This document shows positions 10,928 to 26,583 of a stretch of DNA of 38,546 bases, in pieces. This DNA is from Allobosea sp. (lineage in GTDB: Bacteria > Pseudomonadota > Alphaproteobacteria > Rhizobiales > Beijerinckiaceae): NCBI RefSeq assembly GCF_030694325.1, contig NZ_JAUXYO010000235.1, positions 1 to 38,546 on the forward strand, given 5' to 3'. The notes below the pieces were generated by a model. That model ran no database searches. It had not been told where the DNA came from and saw only the letters and a list, made by a program, of their open reading frames with translations. Numbering within the stretch: position 1 is the first letter of the stretch; each line of letters opens with the position of its first letter. Made by a program: the position numbers and the translations under genes.

Positions 10928-10955
10928 TGTCAGACAATCTGTCAATCAGTTGACA
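10928..10955. promoter_or_regulatory. Candidate GntR operator upstream of the LIV-type ABC operon, with overlapping second palindrome
   Basis: TGTCAGACAATCTGTCAA at 10928-10945 contains the palindrome CAGA-CAA-TCTG (10931-10941). It matches the site at 18993-19010 in 17 of 18 bases. A second inverted repeat overlaps it: TGTCAA and TTGACA around TCAG (10940-10955). The TTGACA could be a -35 box for the operon. I see only weak -10 candidates downstream. The centre is ~91 bp before the ATG at 11027. Confidence 0.7.
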
Positions 10956-11026
10956 GCCCTTCGGTTCTGTACGACATCTTTCCGCGTGAGGGGCCCAGAG
11001 AAGGCGCCTGTACGATGGAGGAATCG

Positions 11027-12247
11027 ATGTCGCATAAGTCGTTCACCCGCGGCGTCAGCCGCCGTGGTCTGATGCTCGGTGCCGCGGGCGCCATCGCCGC
11101 GCCCCATGTCGTCCGGGACGCCGTCGCCCAGGGCAAGGCCGTCAATGTCGGCGTGATCGTGCCGCTCTCGGGCGCCAACGCCCAGTTCGGGATCAATTCG
11201 CGCAACGGCATCGAGCTGGTCGCCGACGAAATCAATGCCGCCGGCGGCATCAAGGCGCTCGGCGGGGCCCGCATCAACCTGGTCATCGCCGACTCGACCT
11301 CGACGCCGACCACCGCCGCCAATGTCGCCCAGCGCCTGCTGACGCAGAACGACGTCGTGGCGATCCTCGGCGCCTTCGCCTCGTCGCTCACCATCGCGAT
11401 CTCGGAGGTCACCGAGCGCCGGGGCGTGCCGTTGCTCACCATGTCGTTCTCGGACCAGATCACCGGGCGCGGCTTCGAGAACATCTTCCAGGTCGTCGCC
11501 AAGGCCTCGGTGATCGGCAAGGCGCAGTTCGACGGCACGGCCGCCATCGCGGCGAGCGCCGGTCAGAAGCTCGAGCGCATCGCGATCATGTACGAGGACA
11601 CCGCCTACGGCACCTCGCAGGCGGCCGGGCTGCGCGTCGGCGCCAAGGCGGCCGGCGTCCAGATCGTCATGGACGACGCCTATCCGCTGGGGATCACCGA
11701 CGTCACGCCGCTGATCAACAAGCTCCGCGCCTCGGGCGCGCAGGCGGTGTTCCCGGTCTCGTATCTCAACGATTCCCTGCAGATCATCCGTGCGATGCGC
11801 CAGCAGCGCATCACCATCCCCGCCATCGGCGGTGCGGCCGGCTACGTCATCCCCGATTTTGAGAAGGGGCTGGGCGAATTCGCCGAGGGCGTGCTCTCGA
11901 TCTCGCCGGCCAATTACGACCTCGCGCCGGAGCTGACCGAGCGCTTCCGCAAGCGCTTCGGCTATTTCATGGTCCATGAGGCGCTGGAGCATGCCGTCTG
12001 CATGGATGTGCTGGCCCAGGCGATGGAGAAGGCCAAGTCGGCCAAGCCGGACGACCTGCGCAAGGCGCTCCAGGGCGCCCGCTTCGAGGGCGGCTGGACC
12101 AAGGCCATGACGGGCGGCGCCGTGCAGTTCGACAAGACCGGCCTCAACACGCTCTCCGTTCCCGTCATGGTCCAGTGGCGCAATAAGGAACTCGTCACCG
12201 TCTGGCCTGCCGACGTCGCCAAGGCCAAGGCCGTCTGGGGCGGCTGA
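11027..12247 (+). CDS. ABC transporter substrate-binding protein, LivJ/LivK-like
   Basis: A 406-residue periplasmic binding protein of the branched-chain-amino-acid/amide/urea group (type 1 periplasmic-binding fold). A twin-arginine-like leader SRRGLMLGAAGAIAAP near residues 12-27 is followed by the mature start VNVGVIVPLSGANAQFG. Other family landmarks are DEINAAGGI, TLLTMSFSDQ-type ligand contacts and YEDTAYGTSQ. The ATG at 11027 follows GGAGG with 5-bp spacing; the ATG at 11015 overlaps that ribosome site and is rejected. It is the first gene of an operon reaching 16814. The ligand is unknown; this family also imports aromatic acids and other carboxylates. Confidence 0.92.
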   Translation: MSHKSFTRGVSRRGLMLGAAGAIAAPHVVRDAVAQGKAVNVGVIVPLSGANAQFGINSRNGIELVADEINAAGGIKALGGARINLVIADSTSTPTTAANVAQRLLTQNDVVAILGAFASSLTIAISEVTERRGVPLLTMSFSDQITGRGFENIFQVVAKASVIGKAQFDGTAAIAASAGQKLERIAIMYEDTAYGTSQAAGLRVGAKAAGVQIVMDDAYPLGITDVTPLINKLRASGAQAVFPVSYLNDSLQIIRAMRQQRITIPAIGGAAGYVIPDFEKGLGEFAEGVLSISPANYDLAPELTERFRKRFGYFMVHEALEHAVCMDVLAQAMEKAKSAKPDDLRKALQGARFEGGWTKAMTGGAVQFDKTGLNTLSVPVMVQWRNKELVTVWPADVAKAKAVWGG

Positions 12248-12289
12248 GGCGGAAGGCCGGTCGGGGCCGGGCAGGGGAGAGAGACGGCT

Positions 12290-13150
12290 ATGGCGGTGGT
12301 TCAGGCCATCCTGGACGGCTTGATGATCGGCGGTGTCTACGCCGTCATCTCGATCGGCCTGACGCTGGTCTTCGGCGTGATGGGGATCGTGAATTTCGCG
12401 CAGGCGGAGTTCCTGATGCTCGGCATGTTCGTGGCCTATTACGCCTGGGCCTGGCTCGGGCTCGATCCGCTGCTGGCGGCCCCGCTCGCCTTCGCCGTGG
12501 TGTTCCTGCTCGGCGCGGCGCTCCAGCGCGTGCTAATCAGGCGCGTGCTCAAGGCGCCCGAGGTGGCGCAGATCTTCCTCACCGTCGGCCTGCTGATCGT
12601 GCTGGAGAATGCCGCGCTGCTGATGTTCGGGTCGGGTTTCCGCTCGGTCTCGACGCCCTACCAGACCTCGTCGCTGCAGCTCGGACCGCTCTTCATCTCC
12701 GTGCCCTATCTCGCCGCCTTCGCCATGTCGGTGGCCTCGGGGCTGGCGCTCTGGCTCTTCCTCAAGTCGAGCTGGTTCGGCCGCGCCATGCGCGCCACCG
12801 CACAGGACCCGATGGCCGCGCGGTTGATGGGCATCGACGCCGACCGAATGCACATGCTCGCCTTCGCGCTGGGCGTCGGGCTGACCGCCTTCGGCGGCGC
12901 GGTGATCCTGCCCTATCTGACGGCCTCGCCGACGGTCGGCACGCAATTCGCGGTGCTGATGTTCACCGTGGTGGTGCTCGGCGGGCTGGGCTCGGTCGCG
13001 GGCGCGGTGGTCGGTGGCCTCGCCGTCGGCATCATCCAGTCGCTCTCGGCGCTGGTCTTCCCGATCCAGCTGCAGAACCTCGTCCTCTTCGTCGTCTTCA
13101 TCGCGGTGCTGGCTTTCCGGCCGAAGGGCCTGCTGGGAGCGGCCCGATGA
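12290..13150 (+). CDS. livH: Branched-chain amino acid-type ABC permease, LivH family
   Basis: A 286-residue membrane protein. The LivH opening ILDGLMIGGVYAVISIGLTLVFGVMGIVN is present in pieces across residues 6-35, followed by NFAQAEFLMLG. The cytoplasmic ATPase-contact loop is near RAMRATAQDPMAARLMGID. The C terminus FRPKGLLG is a family signature. The ribosome site is GGGGAGAG. It overlaps the next permease by 4 bp (ATGA). Confidence 0.93.
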   Translation: MAVVQAILDGLMIGGVYAVISIGLTLVFGVMGIVNFAQAEFLMLGMFVAYYAWAWLGLDPLLAAPLAFAVVFLLGAALQRVLIRRVLKAPEVAQIFLTVGLLIVLENAALLMFGSGFRSVSTPYQTSSLQLGPLFISVPYLAAFAMSVASGLALWLFLKSSWFGRAMRATAQDPMAARLMGIDADRMHMLAFALGVGLTAFGGAVILPYLTASPTVGTQFAVLMFTVVVLGGLGSVAGAVVGGLAVGIIQSLSALVFPIQLQNLVLFVVFIAVLAFRPKGLLGAAR

Positions 13151-14130
13151 GCGCGCTGTCCGTTCGGCAGGCCCTCGGCCTCGCGCTGCTTGCGGCGCTC
13201 GCCATCGCCCTGCCTTTCGCCTTCGAACCGCGCGGCTACGGCATCCGCATCCTCTGCCTGGCGCTGCTCTTCGCCGCCATGGCGCAGGCCTGGAACATCG
13301 TCGCCGGGCTCGCCAACCAGATCTCGCTCGGCCATGCCGCGTTCTTCGGCATCGGCGCCTACACCTCGACGCTGCTTCTCATCCATTTCGGCATCACGCC
13401 CTGGCTCGGCATGATGGCGGCAGCGGTCCTGGGCGGGCTTGCTGCGCTTCTGATCAGCCTGCCGACGATGAGGCTGCGCGGCCACTATTTCGCGCTGGCG
13501 ACGCTCGCCTTTGGCGAGGTCATGCGCGTCATCGGCAACAGCTGGGGCGGGCTGACCGGCGGACCGGTCGGCATCTCCGTGCCCTTCGCCAAGCCGAACC
13601 TCGCTCTGATGCAGTTCGCCGATACCCGCGCCTCCTACTGGCTGATGCTGGGGGCGCTCGTCGTGGTGACCGTGATCTTCGTCGCGATCAAGCGCAGCCG
13701 CCTCGGCTATCGGCTGCGGGCGATCAAGGAGAATGCTGACGCGGCCGAGGTCATCGGCGTCGACACCACCCGCACCAAGATCGTCGCGGCGGTGATCTCG
13801 GGCGCACTAACGGCGGCGCTCGGCACGCTCTACGCCCAGTTCCAGTTCTTCTTCGATCCCGACACCGTCTTCGGCGTCGCCTCGATCTCGGTGCGGATGG
13901 CGATGATCGCCATCGTCGGCGGCATCGGCACGGCAGCCGGCCCTATCCTCGGCGCCTTCTTCGTCATCCCGCTGGAGGAGATCGCCAACCAGGTCTTCTC
14001 CGCCCAGGCGGCGGGGCTGTCGCAACTGGTCTTCGGCGTGCTGCTGATCCTCGTGATCCTGGTCGAGCCGCGTGGCTTCATGGCGATCGGCCCGCGGATC
14101 AGGCGCCTGCTGCGCCGGGAGGAACGCTGA
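13147..14130 (+). CDS. livM: Branched-chain amino acid-type ABC permease, LivM family
   Basis: A 327-residue membrane protein with the LivM landmarks AQAWNIVAGLANQISLGHAAFFGIGAYT (residues ~44-71, shown here in part by SLGHAAFFGIGAY), RLRGHYFALATLAFGE, and GYRLRAIKENADAAEVIG, the loop that meets the ATPases. The C terminus VEPRGFMAIG is typical. Start and stop overlap its neighbours (ATGA before, TGATG after), so it is translated together with LivH and LivG. It probably forms the channel with LivH. Confidence 0.93.
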   Translation: MSALSVRQALGLALLAALAIALPFAFEPRGYGIRILCLALLFAAMAQAWNIVAGLANQISLGHAAFFGIGAYTSTLLLIHFGITPWLGMMAAAVLGGLAALLISLPTMRLRGHYFALATLAFGEVMRVIGNSWGGLTGGPVGISVPFAKPNLALMQFADTRASYWLMLGALVVVTVIFVAIKRSRLGYRLRAIKENADAAEVIGVDTTRTKIVAAVISGALTAALGTLYAQFQFFFDPDTVFGVASISVRMAMIAIVGGIGTAAGPILGAFFVIPLEEIANQVFSAQAAGLSQLVFGVLLILVILVEPRGFMAIGPRIRRLLRREER

Positions 14131-14852
14131 TGGTCGCCCCTCTGCTCCAGGTCACCGGCCTCGGCAAGCGCTTCGGCGGGCTGCAGGCCTTGTCGGAGGT
14201 GTCGCTGTCGGTGGCGCCGGGCGAGATCCTCGGGCTGATCGGCCCCAACGGCGCCGGCAAGACGACGCTGTTCTCGACGCTGGTCGGCCTGCACCGCCCC
14301 GATGCCGGTACGATCCGGCTCGACGGCCGCGACCTCGTCGGCCTGAAGCCGCACAAGATCGCCGCAGCGGGCATGGTCAAGACCTTCCAGAATGTCGCGC
14401 TCTTCCTCGACTCGACCGTTCTCGACAACGTCCTGACCGGCGGGCTGATGCGCCATGCGATACCTGAGGCGCGCGAACTCGCCAGGCGCTGCCTCGAGCG
14501 CGTCGGCATCGGCGCGATCGCCGGCAAGATCGCACGCGATCTCTCCTTTCCGGAGCGGGCGCGGGTCGAGGTCGCGCGCGCGCTCTGCACCGAGCCGCGC
14601 GTCCTGCTGCTCGACGAGGCGATGGCGGCGCTCAACCACGCCGAGATGGACGCCTTCATGGATCTGCTGCGCCAGCTGCGCGCGGAGGGGCTGACGCTGG
14701 TCGTCGTCGAGCACCACATGCGCGCGATCATGGCGCTCTGCGACCGGCTCGTCGTGCTGAATTTCGGCCAGATGATCGCCACGGGCACCCCGGCCGAGAT
14801 CGCGCGCGATCCGGCCGTGATCGAGGCTTATCTCGGCCGGTCGGCGGCGTGA
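14130..14852 (+). CDS. livG: ABC transporter ATP-binding protein, LivG family, with degenerate signature
   Basis: A 240-residue ATPase. Walker A is GPNGAGKT (38-45) and the Q-loop is in VKTFQNVALF. The signature reads LSFPERARVEVARAL (138-152): the Ser is kept but the usual Gly-Gly or Tyr-Gly-Gln is lost. The Walker B region reads LLLDEAMAALNHAE, where LivG usually has DEPAAGLNP. The H-loop is VVVEHHM. LivG-type subunits are known to vary here, and pairing with a canonical LivF in a heterodimer would keep one good site. The frame and neighbours show no sign of decay. Confidence 0.9.
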   Translation: MVAPLLQVTGLGKRFGGLQALSEVSLSVAPGEILGLIGPNGAGKTTLFSTLVGLHRPDAGTIRLDGRDLVGLKPHKIAAAGMVKTFQNVALFLDSTVLDNVLTGGLMRHAIPEARELARRCLERVGIGAIAGKIARDLSFPERARVEVARALCTEPRVLLLDEAMAALNHAEMDAFMDLLRQLRAEGLTLVVVEHHMRAIMALCDRLVVLNFGQMIATGTPAEIARDPAVIEAYLGRSAA

Positions 14853-14862
14853 GGAGGGTGCG

Positions 14863-15582
<720 letters not shown>

Positions 15583-15618
15583 GGACCACCGAACACCACC
15601 ACGAAAGGGTCAAGGCCG

Positions 15619-16014
15619 ATGTCGCACAGCGATCAGTTCAACAAAGGGCTCGAAGTCCGCCGCAAGGTGCTGGGCACCGACTATGTCGATGGCAGCCTGG
15701 CCAAGGCCGACGACTTCATGATGGCCTTCCAGAACATCACCACCGAATGGTGCTGGGGCTATGCCTGGACGCGGCCGGGCCTCGAGCACAAGACCCGCTC
15801 GATGCTCAATCTCGCCATGCTGACGGCGCTCGGCAAGCCGGCCGAGCTCAAGCTCCACGTCAAGGGGGCGCTCGCCAACGGCGTGACCGTCGACGAGATC
15901 AAGGAAATCCTGCTCCACGCCACGGTCTATTGCGGCATCCCGGCCGGCCTCGACGCCTTCAAGGCGGCCCATGAGGTGCTGAAGGCCGAGGGGGCCGTGC
16001 CCAACGACAAGTGA
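15619..16014 (+). CDS. Carboxymuconolactone decarboxylase (CMD) family protein, PcaC-like
   Basis: A 131-residue protein with the full CMD domain: RSMLNLAMLTALGK, HVKGALANGVTVDEIKEILL, HATVYCGIPAGLDAFK and EVLKAEG. Length and motifs match gamma-carboxymuconolactone decarboxylase, which acts in the protocatechuate branch of aromatic breakdown. Related AhpD-type CMD proteins use a CxxC pair for peroxide defence; that pair is absent here, which favours a catabolic role. No other protocatechuate gene is in view, so the true substrate may be a different lactone or beta-keto acid. It is cotranscribed with the LIV importer, 36 bp after LivF. Confidence 0.88.
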   Translation: MSHSDQFNKGLEVRRKVLGTDYVDGSLAKADDFMMAFQNITTEWCWGYAWTRPGLEHKTRSMLNLAMLTALGKPAELKLHVKGALANGVTVDEIKEILLHATVYCGIPAGLDAFKAAHEVLKAEGAVPNDK

Positions 16015-16814
16015 GCCCGGCCATGGCCGGCTGGGAAGTCTTCGCCCTGCGCTATGCCGTGCATGAGCGCCGGGCCTTCGAGAACTTCATCCGTGCGCCC
16101 GATCCGCACGATGCGCCCATGCCCATGGACTATTTCGTCTGGGTCGTGCGGCGTGGCGGGCGGGTCGTCGTCGTCGACACCGGCTTCACCCCCGAGGGTG
16201 GAGCCAAGCGCGGCCGCACCTTGATCCGCCCCGTCGAGGCTGCGCTGCGCCAGCTCGGCGTCGCGCCGGAGATGGTGGAGGACGTGGTCATCACGCATCT
16301 CCACTATGACCACGCCGGCAATCTCGACCTCTTCCCGAAGGCCCGCTTCCATCTGCAGGATGCGGAGATGGGCTTCGCGACGGGCCGGCACATGTGCCAG
16401 GCCTGCATCCGCTACCCCTTCGACGTCGAGGATGTCGTCAGGATGGTGCGTGCGGTCTATGCCGAGCGCGTGGTCTTCCATGACGGCGATGCCGAGCTCG
16501 ACGAGGGCCTGAGCCTGCACAAGGTCGGCGGCCACAGCGCCGGCCTGCAGATGGTCCGCGTCGAGACCGCGCGCGGGCCGCTCGTGCTCGCCAGCGACGC
16601 CGCCCATTTCATGGCCAATATCGAGCGGCAGAACCCGTTCCCGATCTTCTTCGATCTCGGCGCGCTGGCGCAGGGCTGGCGCGCCGCGCGCAGACTCGCG
16701 GGAGCGGACGAGCGCATCATTGCCGGTCACGATCCGCTGGTGCGCGAGTTCTATCCCGCCGTGGAAGGATCGGAGGGCGAGACGGTGGCGCTCCACCTGC
16801 CACCGCTGCGCTAG
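16011..16814 (+). CDS. Metallo-beta-lactamase-fold hydrolase, N-acyl-lactonase-like
   Basis: A 267-residue MBL-fold enzyme with a complete two-metal site: HLHYDH (H96, H98, D100, H101), H175 in GGHSAGLQ, D196 in SDAAHF and H240 in GHDPLV. Length and motif spacing fit the AHL-lactonase (AiiA-like) group, which hydrolyses lactone rings. The start is a GTG overlapping the CMD stop (GTGA); an ATG four codons on is a possible alternative. As last gene of the importer operon it may open a lactone formed in a catabolic route, rather than act in quorum quenching. Its stop overlaps the convergent hydrolase stop in CTAG. Confidence 0.85.
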   Translation: MSPAMAGWEVFALRYAVHERRAFENFIRAPDPHDAPMPMDYFVWVVRRGGRVVVVDTGFTPEGGAKRGRTLIRPVEAALRQLGVAPEMVEDVVITHLHYDHAGNLDLFPKARFHLQDAEMGFATGRHMCQACIRYPFDVEDVVRMVRAVYAERVVFHDGDAELDEGLSLHKVGGHSAGLQMVRVETARGPLVLASDAAHFMANIERQNPFPIFFDLGALAQGWRAARRLAGADERIIAGHDPLVREFYPAVEGSEGETVALHLPPLR

Positions 16815-18028
16815 TCAGCGCGGCCCCCGACATGGGCCAGCGCCGCCAGCAGATGCGGGCGGAACAGGTCCGGATGCTCGCACATCGGGAAATGGCCGAG
16901 CCCCTCCATGACGCGCAGATCGGCGCCCGGAATGAGCGCGGCGAGTTTCGCGCCATCCTCGGGCGTCGCCGAATAATCATAGGTGCCGCAGAGCAGCGAG
17001 ACCGGCGTCCGCGCGGCGTCGATGCGGGGCGCGACCTCGGCGCCGTCGAACTCGTCGGAATAGAAGGCGAGGTCGCCGGCATAGATCTCGGGCGCGCCCT
17101 GCGAATAGACCCAGGCGGCCCGGCGGCGGCTGTCGATCGGGCTCGTCGGGCTCATCAGCCCGCGCACGAAGGCGGCGTTGTGCAGCCCGGCATGGACGCC
17201 GACATGATGCTGGAACGGGTTGCGCCGCCCCTTCGAGCGGAAGGGCGGCTCGATCGCGATCACGCCGGCGACGAGATCGGGCCGCTCCGCCGCCAGCAGC
17301 AGGGCGAGCGCCGCCCCCATCGAACCGCCGGCGACGATCGCCTTCTCGCCGATGACCTGTTCGATGATCGCCGTGCACCAGCCGAGATAGCGCTGGCCCG
17401 ACAGCCGGTAGGGCTCGCCCTGCCAGCCTTCGGGCGGCATCGAGCGGCCATGGAAGGGCATGTCCGGCGCCATCAGCCGCCACTCCGCAGCGAGCGCGAC
17501 ATCGGCGAGCTGCCCGTGGAACTGGCGGGAATCGGCGCCGGCCGTGTGCAGGAACAGGACCGGCCGCCCGCTTCCGGCGCACTCCACATGGATCTCGGCT
17601 GCGCTCTCCGGCAAGGCGACCCGGTGATAGCGCCCCTCGATCTGGCTCATTCGGCGCTCGACGGCCGGAGCCGGGGCGGCGGGCGAGAGCGTGACGAGTT
17701 CGAACAGCCGCTCGATCACGGCCCGCGCCTGCGCGATCACGAGCGGGTCGCCGGAGAGGGTGAAGGCGGGATTGGCGATCGCCAGCGCCGTGAAGGCCTG
17801 GAAGCGCGGTGGCGGGGGCAGGGTCAGGAGCCGCGCCCAGTCCGCTTCGGCCGCCGACAGCACGATGTCGGGCGCCGCCGTGCCCTCGAAGACCACGACG
17901 CCGTCATCGAGCCGCAGCAGGATGTCGTCACCCGCCCCCTCGACCCGCAGCACGGCGTGGAGGCCGGCGCCGAGGCGGCGCAGTTCGGCGTCGCCGGTCG
18001 CCGCGGCGATGCGCGCCCGCAGGCCCAT
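16811..18028 (-). CDS. Alpha/beta hydrolase with an extra N-terminal domain
   Basis: A 405-residue protein in two parts. Residues ~130-405 are an alpha/beta hydrolase: oxyanion region LFLHTAGADSRQF, nucleophile S236 in GGSMG, acid D351 in CGTYD, and H379 in GLGHF. Residues ~1-125 form a separate domain with short beta strands (ILLRLDDGVVVFEG, DIVLSAAEADW) and the stretch FTLSGDPLVIAQARAVIERLFELV. This resembles SCP2-like small-molecule-binding domains, but that match is only by eye. The start at 18028 overlaps the reductase stop (TGATG), so the two are coupled. Lactone or thioester hydrolysis would fit the CMD and MBL genes nearby; the substrate is unknown. Confidence 0.85.
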   Translation of the reverse strand: MGLRARIAAATGDAELRRLGAGLHAVLRVEGAGDDILLRLDDGVVVFEGTAAPDIVLSAAEADWARLLTLPPPPRFQAFTALAIANPAFTLSGDPLVIAQARAVIERLFELVTLSPAAPAPAVERRMSQIEGRYHRVALPESAAEIHVECAGSGRPVLFLHTAGADSRQFHGQLADVALAAEWRLMAPDMPFHGRSMPPEGWQGEPYRLSGQRYLGWCTAIIEQVIGEKAIVAGGSMGAALALLLAAERPDLVAGVIAIEPPFRSKGRRNPFQHHVGVHAGLHNAAFVRGLMSPTSPIDSRRRAAWVYSQGAPEIYAGDLAFYSDEFDGAEVAPRIDAARTPVSLLCGTYDYSATPEDGAKLAALIPGADLRVMEGLGHFPMCEHPDLFRPHLLAALAHVGGRAD

Positions 18029-18933
18029 CAGCCGCGCGGACCGGCGGCGAGCGCCTGGAGGTGGCGGTGGATCTCGGTGTGGTCGGCCTGCGGGCCGAGC
18101 CCGCTTTTGGCCGCCTCCCACAGCGCGGCCACGGACTGGACCTGCGGCAGAGGGAGGCCGAGATGATCGGCGAGATCGGCGGCGATGCGCAGATCCTTCG
18201 CCATCAAGGCGAGCGAGAATCCCGAATTGAAGGCCTCGGAGATGACGAAGGGCTTCATCTTCACCTCGGTCGAGTTGTTGCGGCCCGTCGAGGCGTTGAG
18301 CACATCGACGATCGTCTCCGGCGCCAGCCCGAACTGGCCGCCGACCAGCAGCGCCTCGCAGGCCGCGACCAGACCCGCCGCGGAGACGTAGTTGTTCAGC
18401 GCCTTCATCGCGTGGCCGGAGCCGATCGGCCCAGTGGCGAAGATCGACTTGCCCATCGCAGCCAGCACCGGTCGGGCGCGCTCGACCGCCTCGGCCGGTC
18501 CGCCCGCCATGATCGCGAGCGAACCGTCGATCGCGCGCTTCACGCCGCCCGAGACGGGCGCGTCGATCAATTGCAGGCCCAGCGCTGCGAGATCGGCCGC
18601 GAGGCTGACCGTATCCGTAGGCGCCGAGGAGCTCATGTCGATGACGAGCGCACCCTTGGCCAGGGCGCGCGCGGCCCCCGCCTCTAGCAACACGTCGCGC
18701 ACGATCCGACCATTGGGCAGCATCGTGATCAAGATGCCGGCGCCTTCAGCCGCTTGGCTCGCGTCCGCAAAGGCCAGGCCGCCGGCCTCGACCAGAGCCT
18801 GTCGTGGCGCCTCGGCCGGGTCCGCGCCACGCACGGTGAAGCCGGCGGCGATCAGCCGACGCACCATCGGCAGTCCCATCTGGCCGAGCCCGATGAAGGC
18901 GATGGGGGCAGGGGAGCTGGCGCTGTCGGGCAT
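18028..18933 (-). CDS. 3-hydroxyisobutyrate dehydrogenase-family NAD(P)-dependent reductase
   Basis: A 301-residue beta-hydroxyacid dehydrogenase. The Rossmann motif is IAFIGLGQMG (G15, G17, G20). The substrate loop is DAPVSGGV and the catalytic lysine is K177 in GSGHAMKALNNY. The C-terminal helix domain carries the usual MAKDLRIAADLA. The family covers 3-hydroxyisobutyrate dehydrogenase and tartronate semialdehyde reductase. It heads a two-gene minus-strand operon with the alpha/beta hydrolase. A GntR operator lies ~68 bp upstream. Confidence 0.9.
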   Translation of the reverse strand: MPDSASSPAPIAFIGLGQMGLPMVRRLIAAGFTVRGADPAEAPRQALVEAGGLAFADASQAAEGAGILITMLPNGRIVRDVLLEAGAARALAKGALVIDMSSSAPTDTVSLAADLAALGLQLIDAPVSGGVKRAIDGSLAIMAGGPAEAVERARPVLAAMGKSIFATGPIGSGHAMKALNNYVSAAGLVAACEALLVGGQFGLAPETIVDVLNASTGRNNSTEVKMKPFVISEAFNSGFSLALMAKDLRIAADLADHLGLPLPQVQSVAALWEAAKSGLGPQADHTEIHRHLQALAAGPRG

Positions 18934-18992
18934 GGATCAATCCTCCGGCGTCACGCCAAGGGCGGCGCGGCGTCCGGCGGATTTCTGGGCGC

Positions 18993-19010
18993 TATCAGAC
19001 AATCTGTCAA
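18993..19010. promoter_or_regulatory. Candidate GntR operator upstream of the reductase-hydrolase operon
   Basis: TATCAGACAATCTGTCAA, palindrome core CAGACAATCTG at 18996-19006. It differs from the 10928 site at one of 18 positions. Read toward the reductase gene (minus strand), TTGACA at its edge could be a -35 box, so binding would block RNA polymerase. It lies just after the GntR stop codon. Confidence 0.7.
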
Positions 19011-19019
19011 TTCGCGGCG

Positions 19020-19703
19020 TCAGCCGCGGCGAGGCTCGCGCTCCAGCACCGCCAGCGCGACCTTGGCCGCCATAGCGATATGGTACCGACAGGCTTCTTC
19101 GGCCCGGGCTCCGTCGCGCGCCGCGATGGCCTCGTAGATCGCCTCTATCTCTGCGACGCTGTCGTCGAGACGGCCCTGCTGCGTCATCGAGGTAAAGCGC
19201 AGCAGGGTGATGCGGTTGTGCAGCATCGTCAGCGACTGCTTGACGAAGATGTTGCCCGCCCCTTCCATCAACACGCTGTAGAAGCGCGTCTTGGCCGCGA
19301 CGAGCTGAGCGCGGTCGCCGTCGCGGGCCGCCTGCCGGAATCCGGCCACGGCTTGTTTCAGCTCGGCGAGGGCGTCCTCGCTGCCCTGTTCGGCGAAGGC
19401 GCGCCCGGCGAAGCCTTCCAGCAGCGCCCGGACGTCATAGAGCTGGCGGGCCTCGTCGAAATTGATCGATGACACCTCCGGCCCGCGATGCGGCACCGTG
19501 ACGACGAGCCCCTCGGCCTCCAGCTGCCGCAGCGCCTCGCGCACCGAGGTCCGGCCGACACCGATCTGCTCGCAGAGTTCGCGCTCGACCAAGCGCTGTC
19601 CGGGCCGGAAATGCCCGGAGGCGATGGCCTCCCGGATCCGGTCCTCGACCAGGAGCCGCAGCGTGGCGGCCTGCCGCGGAATGCGAAGATTCATCTCGTT
19701 CAT
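19020..19703 (-). CDS. GntR-family transcriptional regulator (FadR/FCD subfamily)
   Basis: A 227-residue regulator. The N-terminal winged helix spans about residues 15-75 (EAIASGHFRPGQRLVERELC, then VGRTSVREALRQLEAEGLV). The C-terminal part is an all-helical FCD effector domain of the kind that often binds carboxylic acids through a metal. The ATG at 19703 gives the normal family N terminus; the frame stays open upstream only because it runs antisense through the TctC gene. It sits between the reductase and TctC genes, with matching palindromes at each side and a third before the LIV operon. It is the obvious candidate to bind them. The ligand is unknown. Confidence 0.92.
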   Translation of the reverse strand: MNEMNLRIPRQAATLRLLVEDRIREAIASGHFRPGQRLVERELCEQIGVGRTSVREALRQLEAEGLVVTVPHRGPEVSSINFDEARQLYDVRALLEGFAGRAFAEQGSEDALAELKQAVAGFRQAARDGDRAQLVAAKTRFYSVLMEGAGNIFVKQSLTMLHNRITLLRFTSMTQQGRLDDSVAEIEAIYEAIAARDGARAEEACRYHIAMAAKVALAVLEREPRRG

Positions 19704-19759
19704 GACGAACACATTGCCGGGTGAGGGCACGCCGTCAATCTCCGCCCTTGACCCCGTCG

Positions 19760-19777
19760 CTGTCAGATTGTCTGATG
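19760..19777. promoter_or_regulatory. Candidate GntR operator between the GntR and TctC genes
   Basis: The palindrome CAGATTGTCTG (19764-19774) is the reverse complement of the core at the two other sites. Across 18 bp it matches the 18993 site in 15 positions. It is ~46 bp before the TctC start and ~66 bp before the GntR start, so it could control both, including autoregulation. Confidence 0.7.
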
Positions 19778-19814: not shown

Positions 19815-20783
19815 ATGAAAAAACTTCTGCTCGGCCTGGCGGCCGCAGCCACGCTGGCGATCGCGCCCGCCGCGGCGCAGACCTATCCGGCGCGCCCGGT
19901 GACGATGCTCGTGCCTTTCGCGCCGGGGGGCACCACCGATGTGCTCGCCCGCGTCCTCGCCGAGGAAATGGGCAAGGCGCTCGGCCAGAACGTCATCGTC
20001 GAGAATGTCGGCGGCGCCGGCGGCCGGACCGGAACCGAGCGCGTCACCCGCGGCGAGCCGGACGGCTATACCGTGCTGTTCGGCAATATGGGCCCTATGG
20101 CGGCCAGCCGGGCGCTGTTCAAGGACCAGCGCTACGATCCCCGCACCGATCTCGCGCCCGTCGGCCTCGTTGCCGATGTGCCGATGGTCATCGCGGCGAG
20201 CAAGAAGAGCGGGGTCGCGGACCTCAAGGCGTTCGTCGCGCGGGTCAAGGAGCAGGGCGACAAGGTGACATTCGGCACCGCCGGCTTCGGCGCGACCTCG
20301 GATCTGGCACCGCGGCTCCTCCTGCATCTGTCGGGCCTGAAGGCCACGATCGTGCCCTACAAGGGCGCAGGCCCCGCGATCCAGGATCTGCTCGGCGGCT
20401 TCGTCGACGGTGTCATCGACCAGACGGCGACCCTGCTGCCGCTGCATGCCGGCGGGTCCGTGACGGCGCTGGCCGTGACGGGCGACAGCCGCCTGCCGCA
20501 GGCGCCGGACGTGCCGACCTTCGCGGAGGCCGGCCTGCCCGAGTTCGGCATGAAGGTCTGGAACGCGCTCGCCGTCCACAAGGACACCAGCCCAGCCATC
20601 GTCGCACGCCTGGTGGCCGCGCTGGACACCAGCCTTTCCTCCGACTTCGTCGCCAAGCGCTTCGAGGGGCTGGCCGTGCCGGTGCCGCCGCCCGCCATTC
20701 GCGGCCCGGCGCATCTGGGCCAGCTGGTGAAAGCCGAGGTCGAGCGCTGGGAAGCAGTGCTGAAGGACGTGCCGAAGCAGTAG
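19815..20783 (+). CDS. Tripartite tricarboxylate transporter binding protein (TctC/Bug family), orphan
   Basis: A 322-residue periplasmic binding protein. The signal peptide is MKKLLLGLAAAATLAIAPAA, cleaved near AAAQ. The mature protein begins TYPARPVTMLVPFAPGGTTD, the Bug-family opening, with the ligand loops GTERVTRGEPDGYT and VPYKGAGPAIQDLLGG. The ATG at 19815 follows GGGAGG; a GTG six codons earlier overlaps that site. No TctA or TctB membrane gene is in the window. Orphan Bug proteins are frequent and may act with distant transporters or in sensing. Its operator links it to the GntR regulon, so it may bind a carboxylate of the same pathway. Confidence 0.92.
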   Translation: MKKLLLGLAAAATLAIAPAAAQTYPARPVTMLVPFAPGGTTDVLARVLAEEMGKALGQNVIVENVGGAGGRTGTERVTRGEPDGYTVLFGNMGPMAASRALFKDQRYDPRTDLAPVGLVADVPMVIAASKKSGVADLKAFVARVKEQGDKVTFGTAGFGATSDLAPRLLLHLSGLKATIVPYKGAGPAIQDLLGGFVDGVIDQTATLLPLHAGGSVTALAVTGDSRLPQAPDVPTFAEAGLPEFGMKVWNALAVHKDTSPAIVARLVAALDTSLSSDFVAKRFEGLAVPVPPPAIRGPAHLGQLVKAEVERWEAVLKDVPKQ

Positions 20784-20967: not shown

Positions 20968-23274
20968 ATGAGCCCGACAGACCCGGACACCGAGTTCCAG
21001 CCGCACACCTCGCATTGGGGCGTGTTCTCCGCCCGGATGCGCGACGGCGCGCTGGAGGTCCGGCCTCATCCCGGCGATCCCGATCCCAACCGGATCATCG
21101 ACAACTTCCCCGCCGCTTTGCGCCACCGCGCCCGGATCGCCCGGCCGATGGTGCGCCGCGGCTGGCTCGAGAACGGGCCGGGCCCGGATTCGCGCCGCGG
21201 GTCGGACGACTATGTCGCGATGAGCTGGTCCGATGTGCTGGACCGGCTCGGCGGCGAATTGCGGCGCCTCCGCGACGGCCCCGGCCCGCAGGCGATTTTC
21301 GGCGGCTCCTATGGCTGGGCCAGCGCCGGGCGCTTCCACCACGCCCAGAGCCAGATCCACCGTTTCCTCAACACCGCCTGCGGCGGCTATGTGAAGTCGG
21401 TCAACAGCTACTCGTCGGGCTCCTCCCAGGTGCTGGTTCCCCATATCATCGGCGACTACGAGGATCTGACGAAGCGCAACGTCTCCTGGGAGCAGGTGGC
21501 GCAGCACAGCGAAATCGTCCTCGCCTTCGGCGGCATGGCGCTGAAGAACTCGATGGTCGCGGGCGGCAGCGTCAGCCAGCATGTCGAGCGCGGTGCCATG
21601 GAGCGGGCCGCCGATCGCGGCTGCGAGTTCGTGCTGGTCAGCCCGCTGCGCGCCGACCTGCCCGAGGAGGCGAAGGCGCAATGGCTGCCGGTGACGCCGG
21701 GCAGCGACACGGCCCTGATGATGGCGCTGGTCCACACCCTTGTCGCCGAGGGGCGGCACGACCGCGCCTTCCTCGAGCGCTGCACCGTCGGCTGGCCGGT
21801 GTTCGAGCGCTATCTGATGGGCGAGACCGACGGCATCGCCAAGGATGCGGCCTGGGCGGCGCCGCTCACCGGCGTCGCGGCGGACGAGATCGTCGCGCTG
21901 GCGCGCCGGCTGCACGGGCGGCGCGCGCTAATCGTGGTCGCCCATGCGCTGCAGCGCGCCGAGCATGGCGAGCAGCCCGTCTGGATGGGCATGGTGCTCG
22001 CCGCCACGCTCGGCCAGATCGGCCTTCCGGGCGGTGGCTACGGCTATGCGCTCGGCGCGATCGCCTATTACGGCCGGCGTTTCAACGCGGTGCCGGTACC
22101 GACCTTCTCGCAAGGCCGCAACGGCGTCAGCGACTTCATCCCGGTCGCGCGCATCGCCGACATGCTGCTCAACCCCGGCGGCAGCTACCGCTACAACGGC
22201 CAGACCCGAAGCTACCCCGAGATCAAGCTGGTCTACTGGGCCGGCGGCAACCCCTTCCATCATCATCAGGACCTCAACCGCCTGCGCCGCGCCTTCGCCC
22301 GTCTCGACACGCTGGTCGTCCACGAACTGGCCTGGACGGCGACCGCTCGTCATGCAGATGTGGTTCTTCCATGCACCATGACGCTGGAACGCGAGGACAT
22401 CGGCGCCAGCTCGAACGACCCGCTGCTGCTGCCGATGCGCCCGGTCGCGGCGCCATTCGGCGAAGCGCGCGACGATTACGCGATCTTCGCCGATCTCGCC
22501 GAGCGCCTCGGTGCCCGCGAGGCCTTCACCGAAGGGCGCAGCGTGCGGCAATGGCTCGAGCATCTCTACGAGCCCACCCGGCAGGCGCTGGCGGCGATGG
22601 GCCGGCCGGCACCGGACTTCGCCGAATTCTGGGCCGGGGAGGGCTTCGAGCTGCCGCAACTCGCTGACGATGGCGGGCGGCTGCGGGCTTTTCGCGACGA
22701 TCCCGAGGGCCGGCCTCTGCCGACGCCGAGCGGCAAGCTCGAGATCACCAGCAAGACCATCGCCGGCTTCGGCGAGGCGGACTGCCCGGGGCATCCGACC
22801 TGGCTCGGTTCGATCGCAGTCCCCGATGCGGCCACTCCCTTCGTGCTGATCGCCAACCAGCCGCGCACGCGCCTGCACAGTCAGTTCGACTTCGGCGGCC
22901 ACAGCGACGGAGCCAAGCGGCGCGGTCGGGAGGTTGCGAGCCTGCACCCCGAGGATGCGGCGCGACTCGGCCTGGCGGAGGGCGACATCGCCCGGCTGTT
23001 CAACGAGCGCGGCGCCTGCCTCGCGGCCGTGCGGCTGACCGACGGCATCCGCCGCGGCGTCGTCCAGCTCCCGACCGGCGCCTGGTACGACCCTGCCGAC
23101 CCGACCGAGGAGAAGTCGCTCTGCGTGCACGGCAATCCCAATGTGCTGACGCGCGACATCGGCACCTCGGCGCTGGCGCAGGGTTGCACCGGCCAGCTCA
23201 CCACCGTGCGGGTCGAGCGCTACACGGGCAACCTGCCGCCGATCCAGGCGCACGATCCGCCACGCGCGGCCTGA
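20968..23274 (+). CDS. Molybdopterin oxidoreductase, biotin/TMAO/DMSO reductase type (BisC/TorZ-like)
   Basis: A 768-residue enzyme of the DMSO reductase family. The opening TSHWGVFSARMRDGAL and GGSYGWASAGRFHHAQSQ are characteristic of BisC and TorZ. SYSSGSSQ (~147-154) aligns with the YSTGAAQ segment that supplies the molybdenum-ligand serine, giving S149. The C-terminal cofactor domain has LIANQPRTRLHSQ. There is no N-terminal Cys cluster for an iron-sulfur centre and no Tat leader, so it should be a cytoplasmic single-subunit S- or N-oxide reductase, as BisC is. An AGGAG lies 11 bp before the ATG. It is convergent with the AraC gene. No redox partner gene is adjacent. Confidence 0.9.
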   Translation: MSPTDPDTEFQPHTSHWGVFSARMRDGALEVRPHPGDPDPNRIIDNFPAALRHRARIARPMVRRGWLENGPGPDSRRGSDDYVAMSWSDVLDRLGGELRRLRDGPGPQAIFGGSYGWASAGRFHHAQSQIHRFLNTACGGYVKSVNSYSSGSSQVLVPHIIGDYEDLTKRNVSWEQVAQHSEIVLAFGGMALKNSMVAGGSVSQHVERGAMERAADRGCEFVLVSPLRADLPEEAKAQWLPVTPGSDTALMMALVHTLVAEGRHDRAFLERCTVGWPVFERYLMGETDGIAKDAAWAAPLTGVAADEIVALARRLHGRRALIVVAHALQRAEHGEQPVWMGMVLAATLGQIGLPGGGYGYALGAIAYYGRRFNAVPVPTFSQGRNGVSDFIPVARIADMLLNPGGSYRYNGQTRSYPEIKLVYWAGGNPFHHHQDLNRLRRAFARLDTLVVHELAWTATARHADVVLPCTMTLEREDIGASSNDPLLLPMRPVAAPFGEARDDYAIFADLAERLGAREAFTEGRSVRQWLEHLYEPTRQALAAMGRPAPDFAEFWAGEGFELPQLADDGGRLRAFRDDPEGRPLPTPSGKLEITSKTIAGFGEADCPGHPTWLGSIAVPDAATPFVLIANQPRTRLHSQFDFGGHSDGAKRRGREVASLHPEDAARLGLAEGDIARLFNERGACLAAVRLTDGIRRGVVQLPTGAWYDPADPTEEKSLCVHGNPNVLTRDIGTSALAQGCTGQLTTVRVERYTGNLPPIQAHDPPRAA

Positions 23275-24741: not shown

Positions 24742-26583
24742 TCAGAACCGCCAGATCAGCGGCACGATGAAGACCGCAACGACGAAGAACCAGATCAGCA
24801 GGGGCAGGCCGAGCTTCCAGTAGTCGCCGAAGGCATAGCCACCCGGCCCCATCACCATGAGATTGGTCGGTGTCGCGATCGGGGTCAGGAAGGCACCGGC
24901 CGCCGCCACAGCTGTGCTCATCAGCACCGGTTTCGGCGAGATGCCCATGCTGGCGGCAGCCGCGACGCCGATCGGAATGACGATCAGTGCGGTCGCCGTG
25001 TTGCTGATCAGCTGCCCCATCACCGCCGTCAGCACGAAGAGGCCCGCCAGCAGCGCCATCGGCCCGGCATCGCCGACCATCAGCACGAGCCGCTCGGCCA
25101 GCAGCTTGGCCGCACCCGTCTCGACCATCGCCGTCGAGAGCGGCATCATCGCGCCGACGAGGATCACGGTGGTCCAGCTGATCGCGCGGTACGACTGCTC
25201 CACCGTCATGATGCCGGTCATGATGATGGCGCCGGCGGCGAGCAGCCCCGCCACGGCCGGCGGGACGATGCCGGTGGCCAGCAGCAGCACCATGCCGAAC
25301 AGGATGGCGACCGCCTGCTTGGCGCCGGGGCCCATCGGCACCGCCTGGCGGCGCACCAGCTCCGGCGAACTGACCACCAGCACGTCGGGGTCGTCGAGAT
25401 GGGTGTCGAGCGCCTTCCAGGTGCCCTGCAGCAGCATCGTGTCGCCAGCCTGCAGCACGACGCCGCCGGCCTCGCCGGTGACAGCCTCGCCGACGGCGAT
25501 CTCGTTGCCCGAGCGCTGCACCGCGAGGATGATCAAATCGCCGCTCTCGGTCACCATGCCCGGGAAGACGCTCTGTCCGATCAGCCCGGAGCGGGGCGGA
25601 ATGACCACCTCGGCAAGGCCGGAGCGCTTGTTGAACAGCGTCTCCTCGCCCTCGCCCGTCGTCGCGCTTTCGTCGCGGAAGGCCAGGTGCATCGTTGCGG
25701 CGAAGGTCGCGGCCGCCTCGGCATCGCCGCGCAGCAGAATGTGGTCGCCCTCGGCGATCGCGTTGCGGCGCAGCGGGCCGGCGCTGTCGCCCTCCTGGAT
25801 CGCGACGAACTGGAGGCCGGGGAAGGCCGCGAGGTCGATGGCGCTCGCGGGCTGGCCGACATAGGGGCAGGTGGCGCGCACGCGCAGCTGATAGATGCCG
25901 CTCGCGAGCCCGTATTGCTCGACCAGCGTCTTGGCGTGGCGGCTGAAATCCGCCGGCATGGTCGCCCCGTTGCGCTCGGGCAAGAGCTTCTGCCCGAACA
26001 GGATCATGATCGCCATCGAGCCGGCGAGCAGCGGAATGCCGGCGAGCGCGAATTCGAAGAAGCCGAAGCCGCCGACCCCGGCATCGACGCCCGCTTCCGA
26101 GACGAGCACGTTCACGGGCGTGCCGGTCAGCGCCAGCATCGAGCCGGCATGGGCGGCAAAGACCAGCGGCATCAGGAGCTGCGAGGAGTTGCGCTTGAGC
26201 CGGACCGCAATGACGACGACGACCGGCAGCAGGGCCGCTACCGCGCCGTTGACGCTGATCAGCGCGGTCAGCAGCGCAACGAGCCCCATGGTCAACAGCA
26301 GCAGGCGGGTTCGGCTCTCTTCGCCCGCGCCCTTGATCAGGAGTTGTCCGGCCCAGGCGGTGACGCCGGTGACCTCGAGGCCGGACGACACCACGAACAG
26401 CGCGGCGATGAAGATCACCGCCGGGTCGCCGAGCCCGCCCAGCGCCTGCGGCAGGGTCAGGACGCCGGTCGCCCAGAGCGAGAGCGCCGTCCCCATCGCC
26501 ACCAGCACGACCGGAACCCTGTTCGTGACGAACAGGATGACGGCCGCAGCGATGATCAGGGCGGTATAGGCAATGGGGCTCAC
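24742..26583 (-). CDS. SLC13/DASS-family permease with two TrkA-C-like domains
   Basis: A 613-residue inner-membrane transporter. Two hydrophobic bundles (about residues 1-200 and 420-613) flank a soluble middle that contains two RCK/TrkA-C-like stretches (VRATCPYVGQPASAIDLA and VIPPRSGLIGQSVF). Each bundle has the SLC13 hairpin motif: LALTGTPVNVLV in the first and TPIATPTNLMVMGPGGY in the second. The family moves dicarboxylates, sulfate or similar anions with sodium. The start is GTG at 26583 after AGGAG; no ATG is near. It is 52 bp after the M20 peptidase gene on the same strand. Substrate unknown. Confidence 0.9.
   Translation of the reverse strand: MSPIAYTALIIAAAVILFVTNRVPVVLVAMGTALSLWATGVLTLPQALGGLGDPAVIFIAALFVVSSGLEVTGVTAWAGQLLIKGAGEESRTRLLLLTMGLVALLTALISVNGAVAALLPVVVVIAVRLKRNSSQLLMPLVFAAHAGSMLALTGTPVNVLVSEAGVDAGVGGFGFFEFALAGIPLLAGSMAIMILFGQKLLPERNGATMPADFSRHAKTLVEQYGLASGIYQLRVRATCPYVGQPASAIDLAAFPGLQFVAIQEGDSAGPLRRNAIAEGDHILLRGDAEAAATFAATMHLAFRDESATTGEGEETLFNKRSGLAEVVIPPRSGLIGQSVFPGMVTESGDLIILAVQRSGNEIAVGEAVTGEAGGVVLQAGDTMLLQGTWKALDTHLDDPDVLVVSSPELVRRQAVPMGPGAKQAVAILFGMVLLLATGIVPPAVAGLLAAGAIIMTGIMTVEQSYRAISWTTVILVGAMMPLSTAMVETGAAKLLAERLVLMVGDAGPMALLAGLFVLTAVMGQLISNTATALIVIPIGVAAAASMGISPKPVLMSTAVAAAGAFLTPIATPTNLMVMGPGGYAFGDYWKLGLPLLIWFFVVAVFIVPLIWRF

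Follow-up and report, generated by a model that had tools for sequence, protein, structure and literature searches.

The closest described counterparts of the system reported here are the local regulators of the FadR (FCD) subfamily of GntR proteins (Suvorova et al. 2015, PMC4494728). According to that survey, operators of this subfamily follow the consensus NyGTM-N0-1-KACNy with a GT-N3-AC core, an extra half-site is located 7–12 nt from the site centre, and the site lies in the divergon with the regulator gene. A second counterpart is the teuBAC1C2 locus of Rhizobium tropici and Rhizobium etli. The available parts of four papers present it as a bean-exudate uptake locus that is induced by bean exudate and required for competitive nodulation (PMC3557214, PMC4125696, PMC8581550, PMC8416774). 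A contig of Allobosea sp. (NZ_JAUXYO010000235.1, assembly GCF_030694325.1; 38,546 nucleotides, one whole contig, referred to as the window) carries a gntR gene at 19020–19703 on the minus strand together with three copies of a short site. The encoded regulator has an N-terminal GntR winged helix (8.5e-21) and a C-terminal FCD domain (3.4e-28), both over the Pfam gathering scores, which places it in the FCD (FadR) subfamily. It shares with the local regulators of PMC4494728 the domain composition, the site in the divergon with the regulator gene and an extra half-site near the core; the GT-N3-AC core is complete at site 1 and has AT for GT at sites 2 and 3. Among the members of that survey examined here, none has this operator. 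From sequence comparison, the three sites are very probably operators of this GntR/FCD protein, which would act on three promoters as a repressor released by a ligand.

The 11-mer CAGACAATCTG occurs exactly at 10931–10941 and 18996–19006 on the plus strand and at 19764–19774 on the minus strand, precisely as the sequence-only reading of this DNA had stated. The corresponding 18-mers are GTCAGACAATCTGTCAAT (site 1, 10929–10946, plus strand), ATCAGACAATCTGTCAAT (site 2, 18994–19011, plus strand) and ATCAGACAATCTGACAGC (site 3, 19759–19776, minus strand). Recomputation returned the same identities as in that reading, 17/18 between sites 1 and 2 and 15/18 between sites 2 and 3; sites 1 and 3 agree at 14/18 positions. 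All three sites are intergenic and precede gene starts, as expected from their earlier assignment to promoter regions. Site 1 is found about 10 bp past the stop of the preceding permease gene and 70–80 bp ahead of the gene of a LIV-type binding protein, and is the predicted operator of the liv, decarboxylase and metallo-beta-lactamase operon. Site 2 occupies the gap that separates the gntR end (19020) from the start of a reductase gene (18933), ahead of the dehydrogenase-hydrolase operon. Site 3 is positioned between the divergent gntR (start 19703) and Bug (start 19815) genes, so that gntR is enclosed by sites 2 and 3 as had been noted.

The genome of 4,634,029 bases contains three exact copies of CAGACAATCTG, all of them in the window, and no copy of the reversed pattern. 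Scatter of the palindrome over many unrelated intergenic regions is thus not observed. Under a first-order Markov model, the expected number of exact copies is 0.011 for the window and 1.3 for the whole genome. The probability of at least three exact copies in the window is 1.9e-7; this value is post hoc, the motif having been picked after it was seen, and the comparative tests therefore weigh more. For the longer 15-mer TCAGACAATCTGTCA, the genome holds only the three window sites at zero or one mismatch and two further copies at two mismatches. At three mismatches the total is 30, compared with 4 for the reversed control.

At a threshold of at least 77% identity, orthologs of the regulator are present in seven of 48 other genomes of the genus Bosea. 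The eight genomes with the regulator, including that of the window, contain 27 exact 11-mers, 22 of which are at most 10 kb from gntR. The 41 remaining genomes contain 32, or 0.78 each. Six of the seven relatives preserve the gene order and carry, at all three positions, a site with 0–3 mismatches to the 15-mer. In the stretch of the seventh (G011) there is no match to the liv operon except for a 29% match to an ATPase, and none to the alpha/beta hydrolase; here the third site precedes the decarboxylase gene. Alignment of the upstream regions revealed 17 contiguous invariant columns at site 1 (TCAGACAATCTGTCAAT, seven genomes), 16 at site 2 and 11 at site 3 (eight genomes each).

The site also accompanies the regulator in Bradyrhizobium, Rhizobium, Ensifer and others. 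Of 103 regulator loci found, 80 named ones were kept (1.475 Mb); several are near-identical Rhizobium plasmids and the set is partly redundant. TCAGACAATCTGTCA has 96 exact matches in these loci, 176 with up to one and 225 with up to two mismatches, and the reversed 15-mer has 0, 0 and 1. Shuffled cores gave no match on 40 of the 80 loci (37 of the 80 are shown in the per-locus listing). In a tree of 34 loci, 25 have a site (two mismatches) no more than 5 kb from gntR. The regulators of the other nine are less than 50% identical in six cases and 59–71% identical in three (L081, L144 and L146). Site-bearing loci are clustered in the tree, not cleanly as a single clade, and many branches are weak.

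The order-wide comparison covered 249 genomes, using the exact 15-mer and a regulator match at E ≤1e-70. The 15-mer is present in 11 and the regulator in 13 of them; eight genomes have both, five only the regulator and three only the site (Fisher 6e-10, uncorrected for relatedness). In seven of the eight, the site is within 10 kb of gntR. In G221, the exact copy is located on another contig, and gntR is preceded at about 130 bp by a site with one mismatch. When one mismatch is allowed, a site is present in 11 of the 13 genomes that carry the regulator. Most exceptions to the pairing shrink on closer look. In G083, G191 and G242 the site is about 10 kb from gntR and adjoins a gene for a 33–34% identical dehydrogenase homolog; in the site-only genomes G052 and G140 it lies about 720–760 bp upstream of a gene for a 41–44% identical GntR homolog. 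The regulon over this cluster proposed by the sequence-only reading gains support from the genome-wide uniqueness of the site and its pairing with the regulator across genomes.

The extent of the recognition element was derived from 88 non-redundant sites gathered at up to two mismatches, for which conservation of the core is partly by construction. Conservation spans about −3 to +16, with 0 at the first T of the 15-mer. The core that PMC4494728 gives for the FadR subfamily fits positions −1 to 5, with A mostly in place of the left G: site 1 reads GTCAGAC and sites 2 and 3 read ATCAGAC. Unlike in the operators of that survey, the left half is mostly weak here (AT for GT) and conservation of the right half-site equals that of the core. 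This half-site, TGTCAA to the right of the core, resembles the extra half-site of the subfamily. The CAGA-CAA-TCTG dyad described earlier is present, but as one of two competing symmetries and as only a part of the conserved site, with the FadR-type core 4 bp to its left and the extra half-site to its right; it probably makes up less than the full recognition element and may not be the dyad that the regulator recognises. In 24 non-redundant sites of the Bosea/Bradyrhizobium group, pairing is 53% around the dyad centre and 42% around the FadR-core centre. In 63 sites of the Rhizobium group, the corresponding values are 59% and 65%. Many Rhizobium sites form a longer palindrome, ATTGACAGATTRTCAGACAATCTGTCAAT, centred on the FadR core, whose left arm is absent from the Bosea sites.

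Inspection by eye placed the sites next to or over possible promoter elements. A TTGACA at 10950–10955 (plus strand), the possible −35 element of the liv promoter, follows site 1 by 3 bp (4 bp in two relatives), and TTGACAG is invariant at this spacing of 3–4 bp in seven genomes. Within 10929–10956, CTGTCAATCAGTTGACAG is a 7-bp inverted repeat in its own right, straddling the last bases of site 1 and the TTGACA, with one additional spacer base in two relatives. Site 2 itself carries TTGACA on the minus strand, which is the strand of the dehydrogenase gene. A possible Bug promoter (19748–19776, plus strand) consists of TTGACC at 19748–19753, a 17-bp spacer and TCTGAT at 19771–19776 inside site 3. 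CTTGAC is kept in seven of eight aligned genomes; site 3 starts 6 bp after TTGAC and covers the possible −10 element of Bug.

The sites abut, contain or cover possible promoter elements, a geometry that suits a repressor released by a ligand. A GntR dimer would bind the FadR-type core (GT-CAG-AC, left G often A) and the second half-site TGTCAA to its right. The bound protein would cover promoter elements of the liv importer-decarboxylase-lactonase, the dehydrogenase-hydrolase and the divergent gntR/Bug units. A plant-derived substrate or intermediate in the FCD domain might then release it and switch on uptake and the catabolic pathway. We infer binding, repression, ligand and pathway from this arrangement; the pairing of site and regulator ahead of recurring target genes comes from comparison of genomes. 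Repression is the probable direction of control, a point held with less confidence than the assignment of the sites to GntR.

Several results weigh against operators of this kind. A simple scan did not recover promoters at sites 1 and 3, where promoter overlap was read by eye, and two of the three window sites have a degenerate left half of the core. The predicted occurrence of the consensus near GntR orthologs in related genomes held in general and failed at five places: no site is found at two mismatches within 5 kb at L081 (71% identity), L144 and L146 (both 59%), or genome-wide at one mismatch in the regulator-bearing genomes G093 and G219. Conversely, G163 has a site and no regulator homolog at E 1e-30. 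In L144, an Acidisoma locus, TGTCAA and TTGACAGACAAT are located directly upstream of gntR, possibly as a diverged operator. Copies of the 11-mer with up to two mismatches show no enrichment in the window, numbering 4 against an expectation of 6.2. Together with a genome expectation of about one copy, this would suit mere chance recurrence of the 11-mer. Such an origin is contradicted by the cross-genus pairing of site and regulator and by the invariant islands within diverged intergenic DNA, and its probability is close to nil.

The other two explanations accept the sites as functional. The same GntR protein could activate transcription from them, at the least that of liv, whose conserved TTGACA begins 3 bp after the end of site 1 and thus directly downstream of it. 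Positions just upstream of the −35 element are also used by activators. Furthermore, for one FadR-type pair both repressor and activator roles appear in the available part of PMC2230225. Binding to a TTGACA within site 2 or to the possible −10 within site 3 should, however, block the polymerase, and activation is an unlikely though not negligible mode. Alternatively, a different regulator might act on the same sites, with gntR as a mere neighbour or target. AraC genes are found nearby in the window and on the Rhizobium plasmids, and the operator of the cumate regulator CymR, which is used in expression vectors, contains CAGACAATCTG (PMC3694467, as far as its available part goes). CymR belongs to the TetR family and its operator has other arms than the sites described here; this likeness was judged an 11-bp coincidence, no search aimed at CymR homologs having been made. 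The site follows gntR through genera and layouts, which makes a different regulator improbable. Ligand-released repression by GntR is the preferred reading.

The predicted liv operon on the plus strand begins with the substrate-binding protein of a LIV-type ABC importer (11015–12247, start possibly 11027; Peripla_BP_6 1.6e-55). It is followed by two permease genes (12290–13150 and 13147–14130; BPD_transp_2) and two ATPase genes (14130–14852 and 14863–15582; ABC_tran, with BCA_ABC_TP_C in the first). Downstream are a PcaC-like protein of the carboxymuconolactone decarboxylase family (15619–16014; CMD 1.2e-21) and a metallo-beta-lactamase-fold protein resembling the AHL-lactonase family (16011–16814; Lactamase_B 6.5e-20), which scores under the cut-off of the lactonase models. 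The name PcaC (TIGR02425) was rejected for the decarboxylase, which reaches 141.7 bits and is under the cut-off of 155.7. In the seven Bosea relatives this protein is 90–99% identical, compared with 77–97% for the regulator, and in all seven none of the other three enzymes is as highly conserved, hinting that the defining reaction of the pathway is perhaps its own.

On the minus strand, an alpha/beta hydrolase (16811–18031; Abhydrolase_1 1.2e-18) has an open frame extending to 18121, and its ATG at 18031 overlaps the stop of the reductase gene. The latter (18028–18933; NAD_binding_2 and NAD_binding_11) encodes a dehydrogenase of the 3-hydroxyisobutyrate/tartronate-semialdehyde type that scores under the cut-offs of the NCBIfam models. 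For the regulator, the best NCBIfam match is PhnR (TIGR03338, Burkholderia type, phosphonate-associated); this name was rejected at 137.3 bits against a curated cut-off of 271.5. The Bug (TctC-type) solute-binding protein (19815–20783, plus strand; TctC 1.9e-47) adjoins gntR in all seven Bosea relatives. Its closest match is BugD, and terephthalate-binding proteins are also among the matches. Lactone opening, decarboxylation and oxidation of a hydroxyacid are the steps that this enzyme set suggests. The substrate was hinted at, and not named, by searches of families and solved structures; one Rhizobium hydrolase has no solved relative at 1e-15, and literature searches on the gene set brought up nothing fitting, judged by titles and abstracts. 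A gene for a BisC-family molybdopterin S/N-oxide reductase (20968–23274) is located between Bug and an AraC gene. It is unmatched in the stretches of all seven Bosea relatives, was rejected as a regulon member and looks like a local insertion. A gene for a CitMHS/DASS-type anion transporter (24742–26583) adjoins the AraC gene.

Gene layouts are unlike among the loci, yet the same site precedes the same kinds of genes. In Bosea, the liv, dehydrogenase, gntR and Bug genes have three sites about them. A single site between divergent liv and gntR genes is seen in several Bradyrhizobium and Tardiphaga loci, and Rhizobium plasmids have many sites. The importer varies between LIV and sugar-type ABC systems. 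The decarboxylase, dehydrogenase and alpha/beta hydrolase recur, and the lactonase-like protein is found in many loci, not all. Rhizobium loci additionally encode a RutA-like flavin mononucleotide (FMN) oxygenase and a RutF-like flavin reductase, both under the cut-offs for those names. One Rhizobium cluster (L190, 24915–26730) contains an FMN reductase gene and ribBA (GTP cyclohydrolase II/3,4-dihydroxy-2-butanone-4-phosphate synthase), which perhaps feed a flavin-dependent oxygenase. The lactonase-like gene ahead of gntR is annotated as two pieces in R. etli CFN 42 (L188, 19104–19880) and is shortened in CIAT 652 (L190, 14086–14595); it is possibly damaged there, or this is an annotation matter.

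On plasmids with 60–64% identical GntR genes the same operator stands ahead of teuB. The primary description of teuBAC1C2 is reportedly that of Rosenblueth et al. 1998. In R. etli CIAT 652 plasmid pB, the annotated teuB, teuA, teuC1 and teuC2 genes are about 14 kb from the GntR gene, and teuB is preceded by an exact 15-mer at 121 bp and a two-mismatch copy at 202 bp. A one-mismatch copy is found 125 bp before a 92% identical teuB on plasmid a of R. tropici CIAT 899, and R. ecuadorense (G071) has an exact site, located 114 bp ahead of a teuB that is 100% identical. With up to two mismatches allowed, four whole plasmids contain 13, 13, 12 and 11 sites, compared with 1, 1, 0 and 0 for the reversed pattern. 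In three annotated plasmid stretches a gene start lies within 300 bp of all 21 sites and within 150 bp of 19; one of the 21 also overlaps a small hypothetical gene. At E 1e-45, 68 plasmid records have the regulator. Among the 60 of these that are listed, 44 are from Rhizobium or Sinorhizobium and 40 of the 44 name Phaseolus as host; of the other four, two give no host, one only a nodule and one blueberry. Sampling may explain this association.

In the parts of the teu papers at hand, the locus is present on plasmids of symbiovar phaseoli and absent from the symbiovar mimosae strain Mim1 (PMC4125696), and such transporter genes are up in bean exudate (PMC8581550). This literature names no regulator of teu, and the 1998 description may say more. 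Judged from its sites, the GntR protein is a candidate regulator of the locus. A wider proposal is more tentative and falls somewhat short of an even chance. The GntR family would sense exudate in bean rhizobia and, from roughly twelve operators on each plasmid, switch a teu regulon that comprises importer, chemoreceptor, oxygenase and lactone-opening genes. Bosea and Bradyrhizobium would employ the same sensor together with a different importer, for plant compounds of the same class. Unlike the teu plasmids, Bosea has a LIV-type importer. At E 1e-30, teuB has no match in the genome of the window and, in the eight Bosea genomes with the regulator, none but a 26% match in G007. The absence of a close teuB from Bosea speaks against a shared substrate and slightly lowers the probability of the wider proposal.

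A regulon of an FCD-type GntR protein is of an ordinary kind; the 15-bp word is specific enough for the regulon to be read across several genera, and it leads unexpectedly to teuBAC1C2. If GntR controls teu, which bean compound is involved and how it is sensed become directly testable, and Bosea would serve as a free-living point of comparison whose gene set is smaller.

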